DNA from: Candidatus Acidiferrales bacterium
Lineage (GTDB): Bacteria > Acidobacteriota > Terriglobia > Acidiferrales > UBA7541
Length of the DNA: 15,239 nucleotides
NCBI GenBank assembly: GCA_955651735.1
Contig: CATPAM010000316.1
Coordinates: forward strand, 1 to 15,239
Direction of reading: 5' to 3'
The stretch's first letter is position 1, and each line of letters opens with the position of its first letter. The translations under genes were made by a program, and so were the position numbers. Of the stretch, positions 7,038 through 15,239 are shown piece after piece. The notes beneath the pieces were generated by a model, which saw only the letters and a list, made by a program, of their open reading frames with translations, was not told where the DNA came from and did not search any database.

Positions 7038-8234
7038 ATGGACTCCGTACGCATTTTTGACACTACACTGCGCGACGGCGAGCAGTCGCCGGGCTTTTCC
7101 ATGAATACGGCGGAAAAAATCCGTATGGCGCGACAGTTGGCCAAGCTCGGTGTGGACGTGATCGAAGCGGGTTTCCCAATCGCCTCGCGGGGAGACCTGG
7201 AGGCGGTGCGTCTGGTCGCCCAGGAAGTGCGTGGCGTACCGATTGCAGCCTTGGCGCGCGCCAAGAAAGAAGACGTCACCGCAGCGATCGAAGCGCTGGA
7301 GTCCGCCGCCGCCCCGCGGCTACATATTTTCTTGGCCACTTCGGATTTGCACCTGCGCGTGAAGCTGAATATGTCACGCGAGCAGGCACTCGAAGCCATT
7401 GCATCGATGATCCGTCTTGGCAGGCAGCACGTCGGTGAAGTGGAATTTTCCGCCGAAGACGCCGGCCGCACCGACATCCAGTTCTTGTGCCAGGTGTGCC
7501 GGGTAGCGGTCGACGCCGGCGCCACCGTCCTGAACCTGCCGGACACCGTCGGTTACGCCATCCCGGAAGAATACGGCGCGATGTTCCGCCAGGTGCGCGA
7601 ATACTTGGGCGATCCTCAAGGCGTCACGCTCAGCGCGCATTGCCACGATGACCTCGGCATGGCCGTGGCCAATTCGCTGGCCGCTGTGCGGGCCGGCGTT
7701 CGCCAGATTGAATGCACGATCAACGGCATCGGGGAACGCGCCGGCAACGCGGCACTGGAAGAAGTGGTGGTCGCTCTCGCCGTGCGCAAGGAGAGCTTCG
7801 GCGTCACCACAGGAATTCGCCTCGAGGAACTTTTCCCCAGCAGCCGCATGCTTTCGGAAATCACCGGAGCCGCCGTGGCGCCCAATAAGGCGGTGGTTGG
7901 CGCAAACGCGTTCGCGCACGAAGCGGGCATTCACCAGGATGGCATTATCAAGAACCCGCTGACCTACGAAATCATTTCGCCGCAAACGGTGGGGGTTCCG
8001 GCACGGTCGCTGGTGCTTGGAAAACATTCCGGCCGCAACGCGCTGCGCTTGAGCCTGCACGATCTGGGCTACGAACCGAACGACGCGGAACTCGCGGAGG
8101 TCTACCGCAGGGTCACTTCTCTCGCGGACCAGCAAAAAGATGTCCGTCAGCGCGACCTGGTAGCCATCGCGCATCAAGTGATTCGCCGCGGAGCGGTGCC
8201 CGTCGCGGCAGAAGCTGCATCGCCCGCGGGTTGA
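7038..8234 (+). CDS. leuA: 2-isopropylmalate synthase lacking the regulatory domain
   Basis: A 398-residue alpha-isopropylmalate synthase, condensing acetyl-CoA with 2-ketoisovalerate in the first committed step of leucine synthesis. The catalytic TIM barrel (residues 1 to about 275) shows DTTLRDGEQSPG at 8-19, the metal-binding HCHDD at 201-205 and GERAGNAALEEVV at 232-244. The linker subdomains contain HEAGIHQDGIIKNPLTYE (294-311) and LVLGKHSGRNAL (325-336), which are specific to LeuA against homocitrate or citramalate synthases. The usual C-terminal leucine-binding domain of about 110-130 residues is missing; the protein ends in an Ala/Pro tail after DLVAIAHQVIRRG, and nothing resembling that domain is left in the next 105 nt. 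Start: ATG at 7038 with AGGGAGA at 7027-7033. Feedback control by leucine is therefore doubtful. Confidence 0.92.
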   Translation: MDSVRIFDTTLRDGEQSPGFSMNTAEKIRMARQLAKLGVDVIEAGFPIASRGDLEAVRLVAQEVRGVPIAALARAKKEDVTAAIEALESAAAPRLHIFLATSDLHLRVKLNMSREQALEAIASMIRLGRQHVGEVEFSAEDAGRTDIQFLCQVCRVAVDAGATVLNLPDTVGYAIPEEYGAMFRQVREYLGDPQGVTLSAHCHDDLGMAVANSLAAVRAGVRQIECTINGIGERAGNAALEEVVVALAVRKESFGVTTGIRLEELFPSSRMLSEITGAAVAPNKAVVGANAFAHEAGIHQDGIIKNPLTYEIISPQTVGVPARSLVLGKHSGRNALRLSLHDLGYEPNDAELAEVYRRVTSLADQQKDVRQRDLVAIAHQVIRRGAVPVAAEAASPAG

Positions 8235-9731: not shown

Positions 9732-12104
9732 ATGACGAAAACCATAGCTAAATTGAAAGAGGTTCCGGCACAGGGTGCGCCGCAGAGCGTAACCTACTGG
9801 CGCGTGGAAGGCTCGCTGCTCGAAGTGGGCGCCATGCGGCTGGTCGGTTTTTTCACCTGGAACGCGCAGAGCTTCTCGGAGCGCTGGGCGCGGCGTTTGG
9901 GCATGGCGGCAATGGCCCTCTCGCGGCCTTTCGCTTATGCGGCAAGCCGCACCTTTGCGACCCGGCTGCTGCACACGCTGTTGCGCGGCGTTAGCCAGGA
10001 CCGCCTCGACTTGTTGGGTGAAGAGTACTTTCACTACGTCCTCAAGCCGCAATTGCGTCGTGAGGCCGTCGAAAAACTTCTTGCGGTCCTGCGCAGCGGC
10101 GAAGAGGTCGTGCTGGTCGGTCAGCTCCTCGATAACGTGTTGCGCCCGCTTGCCAATCACTTCGCCATCTCTTCGTTTGTCTCCAATCGGCTGGAATTTC
10201 GAGACCGCTACGCTACGGGCCGGCTGCTTTCTCCGGTCGTGCGCCCGCGCGGGCCCCTGGCATGGATTGCCAGCGGCTCGACCGACGGACGCGTGCCGCG
10301 CGAGAAATTGCTGGCGCGGCTTGGCTGGAAGAATTCCGATCTGGATACAGCGACGCAGACTGCGGCGCGTCCCCCGGCGCCGGCGGGACGAGCGGTGGCC
10401 GCACTTGGCGACGTTCCCCGCATCGAGCGGCTCGCGGTTCGCGAAACGCTGGCGAATCGCCACATTTTGCTAGTGGGAGTCACCGGCTTCATCGGCAAAG
10501 TGTGGTTGGTCGATTTGCTCGAAAATATTTCAAGCATCGCTAAAATCACGCTGCTCATCCGCCGCAATCGCACCACTTCCGCGCAACGCCGCTTTGAAAA
10601 AATCATCGAGGAGTCGCCGGCGTTCGACACGCTGCAGGCGCGGCACGGCCGACAACTCGGCGCGTTCTTGAGGGGAAAAGTGGAAGTGGTGGAAGGCGAC
10701 GTCAGCCTGCCCGGGCTCGGTCTGGACGAAGCGACGCAAGCTCGGCTGGCAAAATCGCTGGACCTGATTGTCAACAGCGCGGGACTGACCGATTTCAATC
10801 CGGATCTGCGCGAAGCGTTGGCCTCCAACGTCGATTCCGCCGTGCATTTGCTCGCTTTTCTGCGTAAGTGCAATCATGCAGGCCTAATGCACCTTTCCAC
10901 GTGTTACGTGGTGGGTATGCGCGATGGCCGCGTCGGCGAGGAACTGCAGGACAATTACACTCCCGCGCAGGATTCCAACTTCGATGCCCAACGCGAGGTG
11001 GATTCGCTGCGCGAAATGATTGGGCGCATTGAAGCGCGTGCGGAAAGCCCGGAGCTGACCCGCGCGCTGCGCCGGCAGGCACTGGGGCGTGCGGGAGATC
11101 CATCCGCGGTCCCCGCGGAGGAGCTGGACGGAGTGCTGAAGCGCAATCGCGTGCGCTGGTCGCGCAATCGCCTGCTCCGCGTTGGCATGCGGCGCGCGCA
11201 GCATCTTGGCTGGCCGAACACCTACACGTATACGAAAAGTTTAGGTGAGTCGATTCTTTCGCGCCACGGACAGGATTTGCCGATCGCCATCGTGCGGCCG
11301 TCGATCGTGGAAAGCTCGATGCGCTCTCCCTTCGTGGGATGGAATGAAGGCATCAACACCTCGGGGCCGCTCTCATATTTGCTGGGAACTAATTTCCGGC
11401 AGCTGCCCACCAATGAACGCAAGTGCCTGGACGTGATCCCGGTGGACATGGTCTGCCGCGGCATGACGCTGATCGCTGCCGCCATCGTGGCGCGGCGTAA
11501 CGCGCGCGTGTATCAGCTGGCGACCTCCGCGATCAATCCCGTTAACATGGGGCGTAGCATCGAGCTTACCGGGCTGGCCCACCGCAAGCATTACCGAACG
11601 CAGCAGGGCATTGAGCACTGGTTCAAAGTGAAGTTCGAGACCATTCCCGTGTCCAAGCAGCGCTACGAGCGATTGTCGATTCCTATGCAGAAGGCTGTTG
11701 TCTCCCGCATCAACCACATTGCGGTGTTCCTGCGCATGAAGAAGGCGCCGCTGGCCAGGCAGGAGCGCGACTTGTTGCGCGCTGAAAAATTGATCGAGTT
11801 ATACGAGCCGTTCATCCTGCACAACGAACACGTTTTCGAGTCTGAAAATGCGCGCTTGCTTTCCGCTGCGCTTTCTCCGGAAGAGCGCGCGCTTTTTGCT
11901 TTCGATCCGGAATCCATCGACTGGTGGGACTACTGGATCAACATCCACATTCCAGCGCTGCGACGTTGGTGCTATCCGCTGATGGAAGGGCGTCCTTTGG
12001 AGGCGCGCACGCCTCGCGAGCTCGATTGGTCCGCGCAAGCAGCTTGCGCCACTGCCGGTCCCAACTCCACGTCGCCGTCCGATCCTTTATGGCGATCCTC
12101 GTAA
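9732..12104 (+). CDS. Alcohol-forming fatty acyl-CoA reductase with N-terminal degenerate HAD domain
   Basis: A 790-residue fusion. Residues about 20-182 resemble HAD-IB (phosphoserine phosphatase-like) hydrolases, seen in [18 protein letters not shown] and [16 protein letters not shown], but motif I reads WRVEGSLL (23-30) where active enzymes have DxDGT, so both catalytic aspartates are lost. A proline/alanine-rich linker (211-225) leads to a fatty acyl reductase domain: NADPH-binding GVTGFIG (249-255), LIRRNR (275-280), HLSTCYVVG (387-395), catalytic Y498-x3-K502 (YTYTK) and RPSIVESS (522-529). A FAR_C-type C-terminal domain ends in [20 protein letters not shown] (724-743). Expected reaction: acyl-CoA or acyl-ACP to fatty alcohol with NADPH. 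Start: the ATG at 9732 is the only one after an in-frame TAA at 9717-9719; no ribosome site is visible. First gene of the coupled operon. Confidence 0.85.
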
Positions 12105-13249
12105 CCGGTTCGACCGGATATCTCGGCAGCTACCTCGTCGCCGGGCTGCTGCGGGAGTATCGCGACTGTTTAAATCTGCTGGTGCGCGCAAGCTCCCAGC
12201 AGGAGGCCCACGAACGCCTCTGGCATTCCCTGCAGCTTCATTTCGATTTCCCGGAGTTCTTCGATCGCATCAATTCGCGGGTGCGTATCTTTCGGGGCGA
12301 CCTTACCTCCCAGCGCTTCGGCCTGTCCGAAGATGACTATCACGCCCTGGTCGACACCACAGATTCCATCATTCACTGCGCCGCTTCGCTGAACCGCAAG
12401 TCTGAAAGGCAGTGCCTCAATGTGAATCTGCGCGGCTCGCTCGAAGTAATTCAGCTCGCGCGCCGCGTGCAGGACCGCAAGGGGCTGCGGCGGTATTCGC
12501 ACGTGTCCACCGTCGCCGTTGCCGGTCATCGCCGGAACGAGGTGATTGCCGAGGATTCGTCCATCGATTGGGGCCGGTCGGACTATGATCCGTACGCGCG
12601 CACCAAGAAATTTTGCGAGCACATGGTTGCGCAACTTCTGCCCGATGTGCCGCGCACCATCTTTCGTCCGGCCATCGTCATGGGCGACAGCCGCCGCGCC
12701 GAAACCTCCCAGTTCGACATGGTGCAAGCGTTTGACTTGCTCGCGCGCTTGCCTGTTCTTCCGCTGCGTCCTCACGATAAGATCGACATTGTCCCGGCTA
12801 ACTACGTCGGCAAGGCCATCGTGACCATTCATCAGAAAGAACGGCCCGCGCACGGCATCTACCATCTTTCCTCGGGCGTGAGCTCCGAGACCTATCAAGA
12901 GCTGACCGATAGTCTCTCGGAAGCCGGCGGCTGGCGGCGCCCTGTCTACGCGCCTTCGTTCGGTCGGCCATTTTCCGCCACGGTGAACTGGCTGGCGAAT
13001 CGCGGAGGCGCGGTCGGCCATGGCGCGTCGCTGATGAAAGTTTTTTGGCCCTATCTCGACTGGAACACGGTCTTCGACAATTCGCGCGTGGCCGCGGAAC
13101 TCGGCGAATCGCCCGCGAAGTTTTCCAGCTACGCGTATCCTCTGCTGAAATTCAGCCGCGAAAACAAGTTCCGCTATCCGGCGAAGCCGTGGCCTTCTTC
13201 CGCCAGTGCCGCTGCATCGAAAACAGTTGCTGGGAGCGCTCGCGCATGA
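12089..13249 (+). CDS. Extended-SDR / thioester-reductase-like NAD(P)-dependent reductase
   Basis: A 386-residue protein of the NAD-binding_4 / epimerase type. Its N-terminus is the Rossmann motif GSTGYLG (7-13), followed by LLVRA (30-34), [13 protein letters not shown] (68-80), IIHCAASLN (94-102), HVSTVAVAG (138-146), catalytic Y169-x3-K173 (YARTK) and [11 protein letters not shown] (192-202). This pattern is shared by thioester reductase domains and acyl reductases, so it may reduce an acyl thioester to an aldehyde or act on a sugar or sterol-type substrate; the sequence does not decide. Start: the ATG at 12089 overlaps the reductase gene by 16 nt, indicating translational coupling; the in-frame ATG at 11924 would bury the Rossmann fold behind 55 unrelated residues. 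The C-terminus is an Ala/Ser-rich tail after residue 366. Confidence 0.83.
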
Positions 13250-14700
13250 CTGATTTTCTCCTCGTGGCGTGGGTCAGCGCACTGATTGAAATACGACGCG
13301 TCGGCTGGATGTTTGGATTCGGCCGCCGCTGGGAAGCCGGCGAGAAGCTGCGCCTGCTCTTCGCCGGATACAACGGCACGCGCAACACCGGCTCCGACGT
13401 TCGCGTCCAAGAAATGCTGCGCCAGGTGCGCCACGTCCTGGCGGCCGGCAATTGCGACTTCAGCGTTATGACCCAGGACTTCAATCGCAGCCGTGGCTAT
13501 TTCGCGGGCACGCGCCAGGTTCATCTGCCTGATGTCTTTCCGCCGTTTTTGTTCCGTGAAGTGCGGCAGAATCACGGCGTCATCGCTTGTGAAGGCTCGA
13601 TGTTCAAGAGCAAATTCGCAAATGCCTTGACCACCATGATGATCGGTTCGCTCGGTCTGGCCGCCGCCGAAAATAAATTGTCGCTCGCGTACGGCGGAGA
13701 AGCCGGCCACATGGATCCTCTCATCCAAGACATGTGCGCCCGTTACGTGCACGACTCCTTGGTCATTACGCGCAACGTGGAGTCGCAGAACCTGTTGCGC
13801 AAACTCGGCATCCCCACCGAGCTCGGCACTGACACCGCCTGGACATTCGAGCCGCATCCCCCGGAATACGCGCGCAAGACGCTGCGAGAAGCGGGCTGGG
13901 ACGAAAAAACTCCCATCCTCGTGCTCTGCCCGATCCATCCTTTCGTGTGGCCGGTAAAAGCATCCATTGCGAAATACATCGCGCGCGTCACCACCGGCGC
14001 GCACAAGGAAAGCCAGTACCGCACCGTTTACTTTCATCAGTCCGGGGCCGATGTGGACGCGAAATACCGCCGCTACGTCTCCGCCTTCGGCAAAGCCGCG
14101 GCGGCCTTCCGGGAACGCCATCGCGTCTTCCCGATTCTTGTCGCCATGGAGCGGCTCGATGCGCGCGCTTGCCGATCGATGCAGGAGTTTTTGCCCGGCG
14201 CGCCGGTATTCACTTCCGATGATTACGACATGTTCCAGCTCGTCTCCATCTTGCGCGTCGGCTCGTACATGGTTTCTTCGCGCTATCACGGCATCGTCAC
14301 CTCTATGCCCAGCCTCGTCGCTTCCGCTGGCGTCACCATGGACGAGCGTATCCGCAACCTCATGCGCGAACGCGGCCACGAGCATCTTTTCCTCACCGTC
14401 GACGATTCCGACCTGGAACCCAAGCTTTTGCAAATGATGGAGGCGCTCGTGCGCGAAGCGGATTCTTTCCGCGAAGGCATCGGCCGCACCGTCGTCCGCA
14501 ATCTGAAAGTTATGGCGCGCATGGGCACCCTTCTCGAAGACACCGTCCGGCGGACGTATCCGGAGTTTCCGCTGCGCTCCGGCGTGCTTTCCTGGGAAGA
14601 GTATCTGCCGCCGCTCAGCAAGACATTGCGCGACCTGGCGGAGCGTTACGACACCAGCACGATCGCGCAGCATTCCGTGGCCGGATCCGCGTCGCGATGA
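13246..14700 (+). CDS. Polysaccharide pyruvyl transferase-like protein
   Basis: A 484-residue protein resembling the polysaccharide pyruvyl transferase (CsaB/WcaK) family, which puts ketal-linked pyruvate from PEP onto sugars. Recognisable are [16 protein letters not shown] (39-54, matching the family's N-terminal G-Y-x-G-x-x-N-x-G-D motif), [10 protein letters not shown] (111-120), AWTF (198-201), a second GT-B-like half from [10 protein letters not shown] (224-233), and [13 protein letters not shown] (344-356), the family's conserved R-x-H. It is longer than the usual 350-400 residues, with a hydrophobic N-terminal segment (3-15) that could anchor it to the membrane and a C-terminal helical tail. 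Start: the ATG at 13246 overlaps the previous stop (ATGA); an in-frame ATG at 13045 lies inside the preceding gene. The family match is by motif, so function and acceptor are uncertain. Confidence 0.7.
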
Positions 14701-14752
14701 GCAAGCTGGCGGTCCCGCCGCACGCGGCGAACGATTCCAACCTCTGAGTCTC

Positions 14753-15239
14753 ATGCCCAACTTCCTCGAAACCATCTTTGCTCAACTGCAGCGCAGTTCC
14801 GGTCGTGTGGTTCTGCGCGAGATTCATGGCGAGCAATTCGGCAGCGTTACCGCCAGGGAATTGCTCGATCAGGTTCGCAACGTGCGTGCCTGCTTGCGTA
14901 CCGCGGGAGTTCGCCCTGGCGACCGCTGCGCTCTCCTGGCGCCCAACTCGATTCTCTGGGCCGCTTTTGACTTGGCGCTGATGGCCGAAGGACTCATCGT
15001 GGTCCCGCTATATTCCCGGCAGTCGCCGGCGGAGCTCGCCGCTATGATGAAAGACTCCGAGCCCAAGCTGCTTTTTGTGAGCGACGCCGCGCTCGGCGAT
15101 GCTGCAATGCACGGATGGACCCGCGATTCCTCCAGCGCACCACGCCGCGTGCTATTCGACGAAGTCTTGCAGCCGCCTGCGCCGGCTCAACCGCTTCCCG
15201 ACGCTCCTAGTCCGCGCCACGATTCCGACACTGTCACCA
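14753..15239 (+). CDS. AMP-binding acyl-CoA/acyl-ACP ligase, N-terminal part
   Basis: The first 162 codons of an ANL-superfamily adenylating enzyme, open at the window edge. The N-terminal ligase subdomain is recognisable: FGSVTARELLDQVRNVRACL (29-48), the GVRPGDRCALLAPNS segment (52-66), WAAFDLALMAEGLIVVPLYSRQSPAEL (69-95) and EPKLLFVSD (102-110). The sequence stops at HDSDTVT, just before the expected ATP-binding P-loop (TSGTTGxPKG), so catalytic residues cannot be checked. Likely role: activation of a fatty acid to acyl-AMP and then acyl-CoA or acyl-ACP, feeding the reductases upstream. It starts 52 nt after the pyruvyl transferase-like gene with only a weak GAG before the ATG, in the same direction and presumably the same operon. 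Confidence 0.85.
   Translation, partial: MPNFLETIFAQLQRSSGRVVLREIHGEQFGSVTARELLDQVRNVRACLRTAGVRPGDRCALLAPNSILWAAFDLALMAEGLIVVPLYSRQSPAELAAMMKDSEPKLLFVSDAALGDAAMHGWTRDSSSAPRRVLFDEVLQPPAPAQPLPDAPSPRHDSDTVT

Follow-up and report, generated by a model that had tools for sequence, protein, structure and literature searches.

The window analysed here, the whole of contig C316 (CATPAM010000316.1; 15,239 nucleotides) of the 577-contig, 73% complete draft genome of a Candidatus Acidiferrales bacterium, ends in four genes, the first half of a lipid-gene operon that counts as many as nine members. The operon is a real and strongly conserved variant of the elb kind, the type of gene set tied to ether lipids in Myxococcus xanthus, and is built from discrete enzymes. 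We consider it about an even bet (roughly 0.5) that it makes an ether-type glycerolipid, with an alkyl or alk-1-enyl glycerol core, as a taken-apart relative of elb, a reading drawn here from the genes alone. This is suggested because the gene order is conserved in 80/80 loci and the core holds only lipid enzymes, and because the fatty acyl reductase, the second ligase and the HAD part are homologous to elb parts, with a lipid kinase of the same type in some elb-type loci. As the contig end cuts the operon, the genes past gene 4 are observed solely in relatives. The features in the window are:

9732..12104, + strand: gene 1 (FAR), a fatty acyl reductase of 790 residues with a degenerate N-terminal HAD-like domain (Pfam HAD 48-181, NAD_binding_4 247-577, Sterile 682-747)
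9732..10376, + strand: the degenerate HAD-like N-terminal domain of gene 1, residues 1-215 with approximate limits, from alignment with elb-type HADs
10470..11972, + strand: the reductase part of gene 1, NAD_binding_4 to Sterile by Pfam, with GVTGFIG and YTYTK motifs
12089..13249, + strand: gene 2 (SDR), 386 residues, an NAD_binding_4 reductase by Pfam
13246..14700, + strand: gene 3 (PPT), 484 residues, polysaccharide-pyruvyl-transferase-like with a predicted GT-B fold (Pfam PF04230, structure model)
14753..15239, + strand: gene 4 (LIG1), the start of an acyl-AMP ligase, an open reading frame cut by the contig end (Pfam AMP-binding)

As the initial annotation had it, the four plus-strand genes overlap by 16 nt (genes 1 and 2) and 4 nt (genes 2 and 3) and leave a gap of 52 nt (genes 3 and 4), which reading of the open reading frames and junctions confirmed. 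Twenty loci were fetched from relatives, their genes called with a home-made codon-model caller and the proteins clustered; the 16-nt overlap is seen again in 12/19 and the 4-nt overlap in 18/19 loci, these being the 19 of 21 with both genes called. Pfam assigned the downstream genes on locus L031 as an enoyl-CoA-hydratase-like crotonase (ECH), an 80-residue acyl carrier protein (ACP), a second ligase (LIG2), a DAGK/YegS-type lipid kinase (DAGK) and a PlsC-type acyltransferase (PlsC). When an alignment of 20 PPTs was used to scan genome contigs, 323 relatives emerged, and the best 80 of them are the named loci below; the caller had missed the SDR in L031 and L038 and the PPT in L146, and tblastn recovered both genes in 80/80. 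By tblastn the order FAR-SDR-PPT-LIG1-ECH-ACP-LIG2-DAGK(-PlsC) is kept in 80/80 named loci, with the SDR adjoining the PPT throughout. Since the overlaps recur in relatives and the order is kept in all 80 loci, junctions and order are more than chance.

Individually, SDR and PPT were found by tblastn in 80 of these loci, LIG1 in 79, FAR in 76, ECH in 72, ACP in 64, LIG2 in 63, DAGK in 56 and PlsC in 32, and the complete nine-gene set in 31. FAR is missing from L070, L112, L114 and L121 and LIG1 from L122, in every case at a contig end, and L103 and L111 lack ECH and everything downstream despite more than 7 kb of room. The invariant core is firmly FAR-SDR-PPT-LIG1, the four window genes, and the kinase follows LIG2 in 56/56 loci holding both. 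Thus the proposal that the four genes are one unit has held, and the outcomes named beforehand as damaging to it did not materialise: the four genes do not part company in relatives, and a ligase from an unrelated standard pathway is ruled out, LIG1 accompanying PPT in 79/80 loci and the downstream genes being lipid-related. The latter (crotonase, ACP, second ligase, lipid kinase, PlsC) also bear out the predicted lipid pathway. The predicted gene identities, an acyl reductase, a second reductase, a pyruvyl transferase-like protein and a ligase, stand as well; the HAD-like part of gene 1 had gone unmentioned, and the set grows to nine genes. LIG1 measures about 560 residues at full length in relatives. 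Motifs presumably needed for function look intact, namely GGDGT of DAGK (19/19), HX4D of PlsC (18/18), the ATP-binding motif of LIG1 (20/20), GGxELA of the crotonase (20/20) and the ACP serine (24/24).

To relate the operon to elb, we used acidobacterial elb proteins, not M. xanthus sequences, including four loci with a full-length ElbD (1457-1475 residues). These run HAD, LarA-like, ElbD, SDR, with additional genes in between in L166 and L171, and Pfam on two of the ElbDs places FAR, ligase, ACP and acyltransferase in one protein. The reductase of gene 1 is 38% identical to the FAR domain of acidobacterial ElbD over about 540 residues (up to 366 bits). On the ligase domain of the four ElbDs, the LIG2 profile scores 260-293 bits and the LIG1 profile 197-219 bits; the PlsC profile gives a weak 26-36 bits. 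The hint at ElbD in the initial annotation has therefore proved apt, reductase and second ligase being homologous to ElbD domains. A DAGK-type kinase also occurs in 4/10 elb-type loci (L054, L056, L058, L059).

The N-terminus of gene 1 appears to be a dead relative of ElbB-like phosphatases. Seven elb-type HADs aligned with it all keep DxDGT, which we take to carry the nucleophile, and SDSxxD, likewise presumed functional. Among the window-type HADs, the nucleophile Asp is lost in 13/13 rows reaching it (two calls start after it) and SDSxxD is absent in 15/15, the second Asp of the first motif being retained in one row, L042. No further HAD gene was found in the conserved operon core by Pfam or in the protein clusters of the loci. 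In 6/6 places of the 396-genome search, HAD-only matches lie no more than 5 kb from an elb-type FAR and share its contig and strand. In the search that covered the 36 genus genomes they share the contig of an elb-type FAR in 6/7 places, with G052 on the opposite strand and G060:C174 on a separate contig. The dead domain has probably kept the ability to bind whichever substrate or partner an ElbB-like phosphatase bound.

Read by homology, LIG2 would adenylate a fatty acid and load it onto the ACP, LIG1 would activate a second acyl group, and FAR would reduce the acyl thioester to an aldehyde or alcohol. The SDR and the pyruvyltransferase-like protein may then be involved in joining the chain to a C3 unit, the DAGK-type kinase would phosphorylate the neutral alkylglycerol, and PlsC, or a housekeeping acyltransferase where PlsC is missing, would acylate the product to an ether phosphatidate for ordinary phospholipid synthesis. 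An ether lipid or a fatty alcohol, as the initial annotation had proposed, is what we infer as the product.

Several observations weigh against an ether lipid. Gene 2 is just 27% identical to an elb-type SDR (about 361 residues, 53 bits), the known ether-lipid pathway offers no role for PPT and ECH, PlsC is confined to its 32 loci though there is room in many others, and the operon ACP profile gave no match to the four ElbDs, with a single blastp match (E 7e-4). Moreover, a tree of 16 window-type, nine stand-alone elb-type and four ElbD FARs splits into three clades (supports 99/100, 94/96 and 99/99), so the window-type FARs seem to be a sister lineage rather than a recent break-up of ElbD, and their function may differ. 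The FAR and acyltransferase activities of ElbD itself could not be shown (PMC9131029). No ether lipids were detected in Pontiella, which has ElbD homologues (PMC11868695), so homologues do not prove the lipid. Solibacter usitatus, which lacks ElbD, does form ether lipids (PMC10087280).

The best-surviving alternative, which we hold to be possible and on the unlikely side, is that the long-chain alcohol or aldehyde made by the operon goes into a different end product, such as a wax-type ester, a polymer alkyl cap or an outer-membrane lipid, the kinase and PlsC being side links to phospholipid synthesis. Congruent with this are the intact FAR motifs, the presence of two acyl ligases and the position of LIG1 within the invariant core, where PlsC is optional; it is opposed by the constant pairing of kinase and LIG2, by the lack of a wax synthase among the Pfam matches of the core genes and by a FAR that is closer to ElbD than to the best solved FAR structure, 7eoz (162 bits).

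Gene 3 allows for a further alternative. It passes the Pfam family PS_pyruv_trans (PF04230) marginally, with 27.2 bits at a gathering cut-off of 25.3, and the family is assigned in 120/120 PPT relatives among the matches listed. The structural matches of its model (pLDDT 84.7) are GT-B, the fold we predict for it; Pvg1p, with a GT-B-like fold of its own, is not among the matches listed for the model, which we do not count against kinship. Searching the sequences of solved structures with the PPT gave no match. Possibly, gene 3 modifies a lipid head group, by phosphoenolpyruvate (PEP)-dependent pyruvylation of a glycolipid or by sugar transfer, with the reductases supplying an alkyl or hydroxy tail. 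This we regard as unlikely, as gene 3 falls far below the cut-off of the CsaB family (52.8 of 213.1 bits for TIGR03609) and is locked between the reductases and LIG1, not beside surface-polysaccharide genes. Past the contig end, where the initial annotation had looked to acyltransferases, carrier proteins and glycosyltransferases, the relatives do provide a PlsC-type acyltransferase and an ACP. The lack of a separate glycosyltransferase in the conserved core also speaks against a head-group modification, though a pyruvylated or glycosylated lipid may still be made, gene 3 itself having the predicted GT-B fold. A second PPT-like protein (L068:10485-11762, 36-38% identical) lies outside any such operon, in a genome, G120, that also has an operon copy.

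Returning to the ether-type glycerolipid, one version has the PPT form the ether. As a GT-B enzyme turned from ketal chemistry to a new use, it would link the product of FAR, a fatty aldehyde or alcohol, to a C3 acceptor such as glycerol by way of an acetal, hemiacetal or enol-ether intermediate. The adduct would be reduced to alkyl glycerol by the SDR, and a LarA-like gene would fill the same slot in elb operons. We advance this as a long shot. A sphingolipid-like pathway is highly improbable: bacterial ceramide clusters contain an ACP, an acyl-ACP ligase, an SDR and a lipid kinase, and this shared parts list is all that speaks for it, whereas FAR and PPT would have no role there and the clustered loci show no recurrent serine-palmitoyltransferase-type gene alongside the operon.

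Gene 1 is present in 36/36 genomes of the window's genus (class Terriglobia, Acidobacteriota) at 71-100% identity; a homologue at 90% is named Candidatus Acidoferrum by its source, and the closest named contig (gene 3 92% identical) is labelled Candidatus Acidiferrum typicum. Across a phylum sample, 64/396 genomes match gene 1 and were sorted by identity and coverage into 12 with a HAD-fused FAR, 49 with an elb-type FAR and three weak ones set aside (G295, G390, G441). The HAD-fused form thus occurs in 12/396 genomes, the window genome and 11 others at 52-58% identity; elb-type FARs mostly lie in reading frames of about 1440-1573 residues. Strong PPT matches were found in 9/297 genomes, all carrying the HAD-fused FAR, and in the remaining three genomes with this FAR the PPT adjoins it; G189, with an elb-type FAR, has a weak 26% PPT match. 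The operon is patchy across the phylum and universal in the genus sample. No genome carries both operon types, against 1.5 expected in 396 (chance 0.20) and 2.5 expected in 25 non-genus genomes (chance 0.024), values uncorrected for kinship, and mutual exclusion was rejected as proof of equal function, being too weak statistically.

Titles of 79/80 named loci, the best 80 of 323 relatives, name acidobacterial metagenome-assembled genomes. The record of L096 is titled Betaproteobacteria; its contig is G006:C5, placed in the window's genus, and it is probably a mislabelled public bin. The PPT relative P0144 is labelled Candidatus Aquilonibacter, of the phylum Vulcanimicrobiota, which would mean either that the gene moved between phyla or that its contig was misbinned.

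Around the operon, an opposite-strand CDP-alcohol phosphatidyltransferase follows it in 13/21 loci. The genes leuA and leuB were ruled out as members: leuB lies upstream in 13/21 loci, genus members included, and is absent there in more distant loci. The LeuA of the window (7038-8234, 398 residues) spans only 5-386 of a 516-position profile, its missing C-terminal part being perhaps the regulatory domain. At L037:9952-12366 an insert between ECH and ACP encodes two trypsin/PDZ proteases and a LuxR-type response regulator, and inserts with like gene sizes are seen in other genus loci. At L129:17137-18978, DAGK is followed by a 141-residue protein of no assigned family, a VKOR-family protein and an esterase in the place of PlsC; a protein of about 130-145 residues occupies the position after DAGK in many other non-genus loci too.

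A radical SAM gene neighbours the operon or the FAR in a few loci:

L111:13261-14937, L131:7099-8769 and L061:2139-3815: B12-type radical SAM protein, about 557 residues, 75-77% identical in three lineages

In L111 and L131 the gene is found after LIG1, in L061 some 2 kb upstream of FAR. At E up to 1e-60, the wider family to which it belongs is present in 26/61 genomes with either FAR type versus 12/335 others (Fisher p 3e-15, uncorrected for kinship), and in 5/12 window-type genomes (p 1e-4). Four of these five hold a distant copy (40-42%) on a different contig, and no member was found in the window genome at E 1e-60. Compared with solved structures, with Tes as the candidate identity, the protein matches only other radical SAM proteins (five matches), and it may still be kin to Tes.

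DUF2229, which we take to be the marker domain of PlsA/GeR-type proteins, is lacking in the window genome and in 31/36 genus genomes, some of them incomplete. An AGPS-like protein was likewise not found among seven FAD-oxidase_C proteins scanned in four genus genomes, all GlcD-, GlcE- or YdiJ-like; these are seven of the 11 places in five genus genomes, the two in G009 and two G022 fragments being left out. If these bacteria make ether lipids, the operon would be the leading candidate and the ether-forming enzyme would be none of the known ones; by elimination, PPT and SDR would be the candidates for this step.

Acidobacteria are suspected to be a source of the branched tetraether climate-proxy lipids. 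Solibacter lacks ElbD (PMC10087280). An iso-diabolic acid glycerol ether is present in most subdivision-4 acidobacterial cultures (PMC13274423), and elb or agps is found only in some subdivision-4 genomes, the role of these proteins not being shown (PMC11868695). Relatives of elb are known in Acidobacteria, and the available text of the three papers concerned mentions neither a split elb system nor a pyruvyltransferase (PMC10087280, PMC11868695, PMC9426513); our literature search found no description of this gene set. Every sampled genome of the window's uncultured soil genus carries the discrete-enzyme operon, and most of these genomes lack the PlsA/GeR marker domain. Single-domain enzymes such as these can be expressed and assayed more easily than an ElbD of 1475 residues, and therefore the ether-forming step of elb-like systems becomes directly testable; the operon could also act as a marker for matching metagenomes to lipid data. 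Should the PPT make the ether, widespread soil Acidobacteria would have an ether-lipid route independent of AGPS, GeR/PlsA and fused ElbD.

Compared with the ketal pyruvyltransferases CsaB and Pvg1p, gene 3 shares the Pfam family and a GT-B-type fold (for gene 3 from the model), and may share the position of the PEP-binding Arg and His (Arg148 and His308 in CsaB); its R176 and H348 are invariant in 20/20 PPTs and align with one CsaB-like relative, L157, which stood in for Paenibacillus alvei CsaB. It differs at the acceptor side, where Y14 and F16 are replaced by N43 and T45, in failing the CsaB cut-off and in its location in a lipid operon. The PlsA/GeR-type ester-to-ether reductases are proposed to form the same kind of bond (PMC13274423), but the operon has no such gene. 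The mammalian-type plasmalogen pathway (acyl-CoA synthetase (ACS), FAR1, GNPAT, AGPS, reductase, AG kinase, AGPAT; PMC9131029) has counterparts by family in the operon for ACS, FAR, reductase, kinase and acyltransferase, whereas AGPS is lacking.

The closest system is elb. In M. xanthus most vinyl and alkyl ether lipids need elbD, the i15:0 aldehyde disappears in elbD mutants, and ACS and ACP activity of ElbD was shown in vitro; the order elbB (HAD), elbC (unknown), elbD, elbE (NAD epimerase) is matched by the acidobacterial elb loci (PMC9131029). The PPT as ElbC is not supported, the elbC position in acidobacterial elb operons holding another gene:

L055:15031-16737, L056:15075-16772 and L165:10456-12054: LarA-like (lactate racemase N-domain) gene at the elbC position, by Pfam

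M. xanthus ElbC may by analogy of position alone be LarA-like too. A strong LarA-like match occurs in 38/49 elb-type genomes versus 0/12 with the window-type operon. Both systems bring together FAR, ligase, ACP, acyltransferase, HAD and SDR functions, and all four ElbD functions are encoded in the window type, with clear homology for FAR and LIG2, weak for PlsC and at family level for the ACP; the HAD part, too, is detectably homologous to its acidobacterial elb counterpart. Yet the window type uses separate proteins where elb has one fused ElbD, its HAD is apparently dead and fused to FAR where the elb-type HAD motifs are intact, and it adds the PPT, a second ligase and a crotonase.

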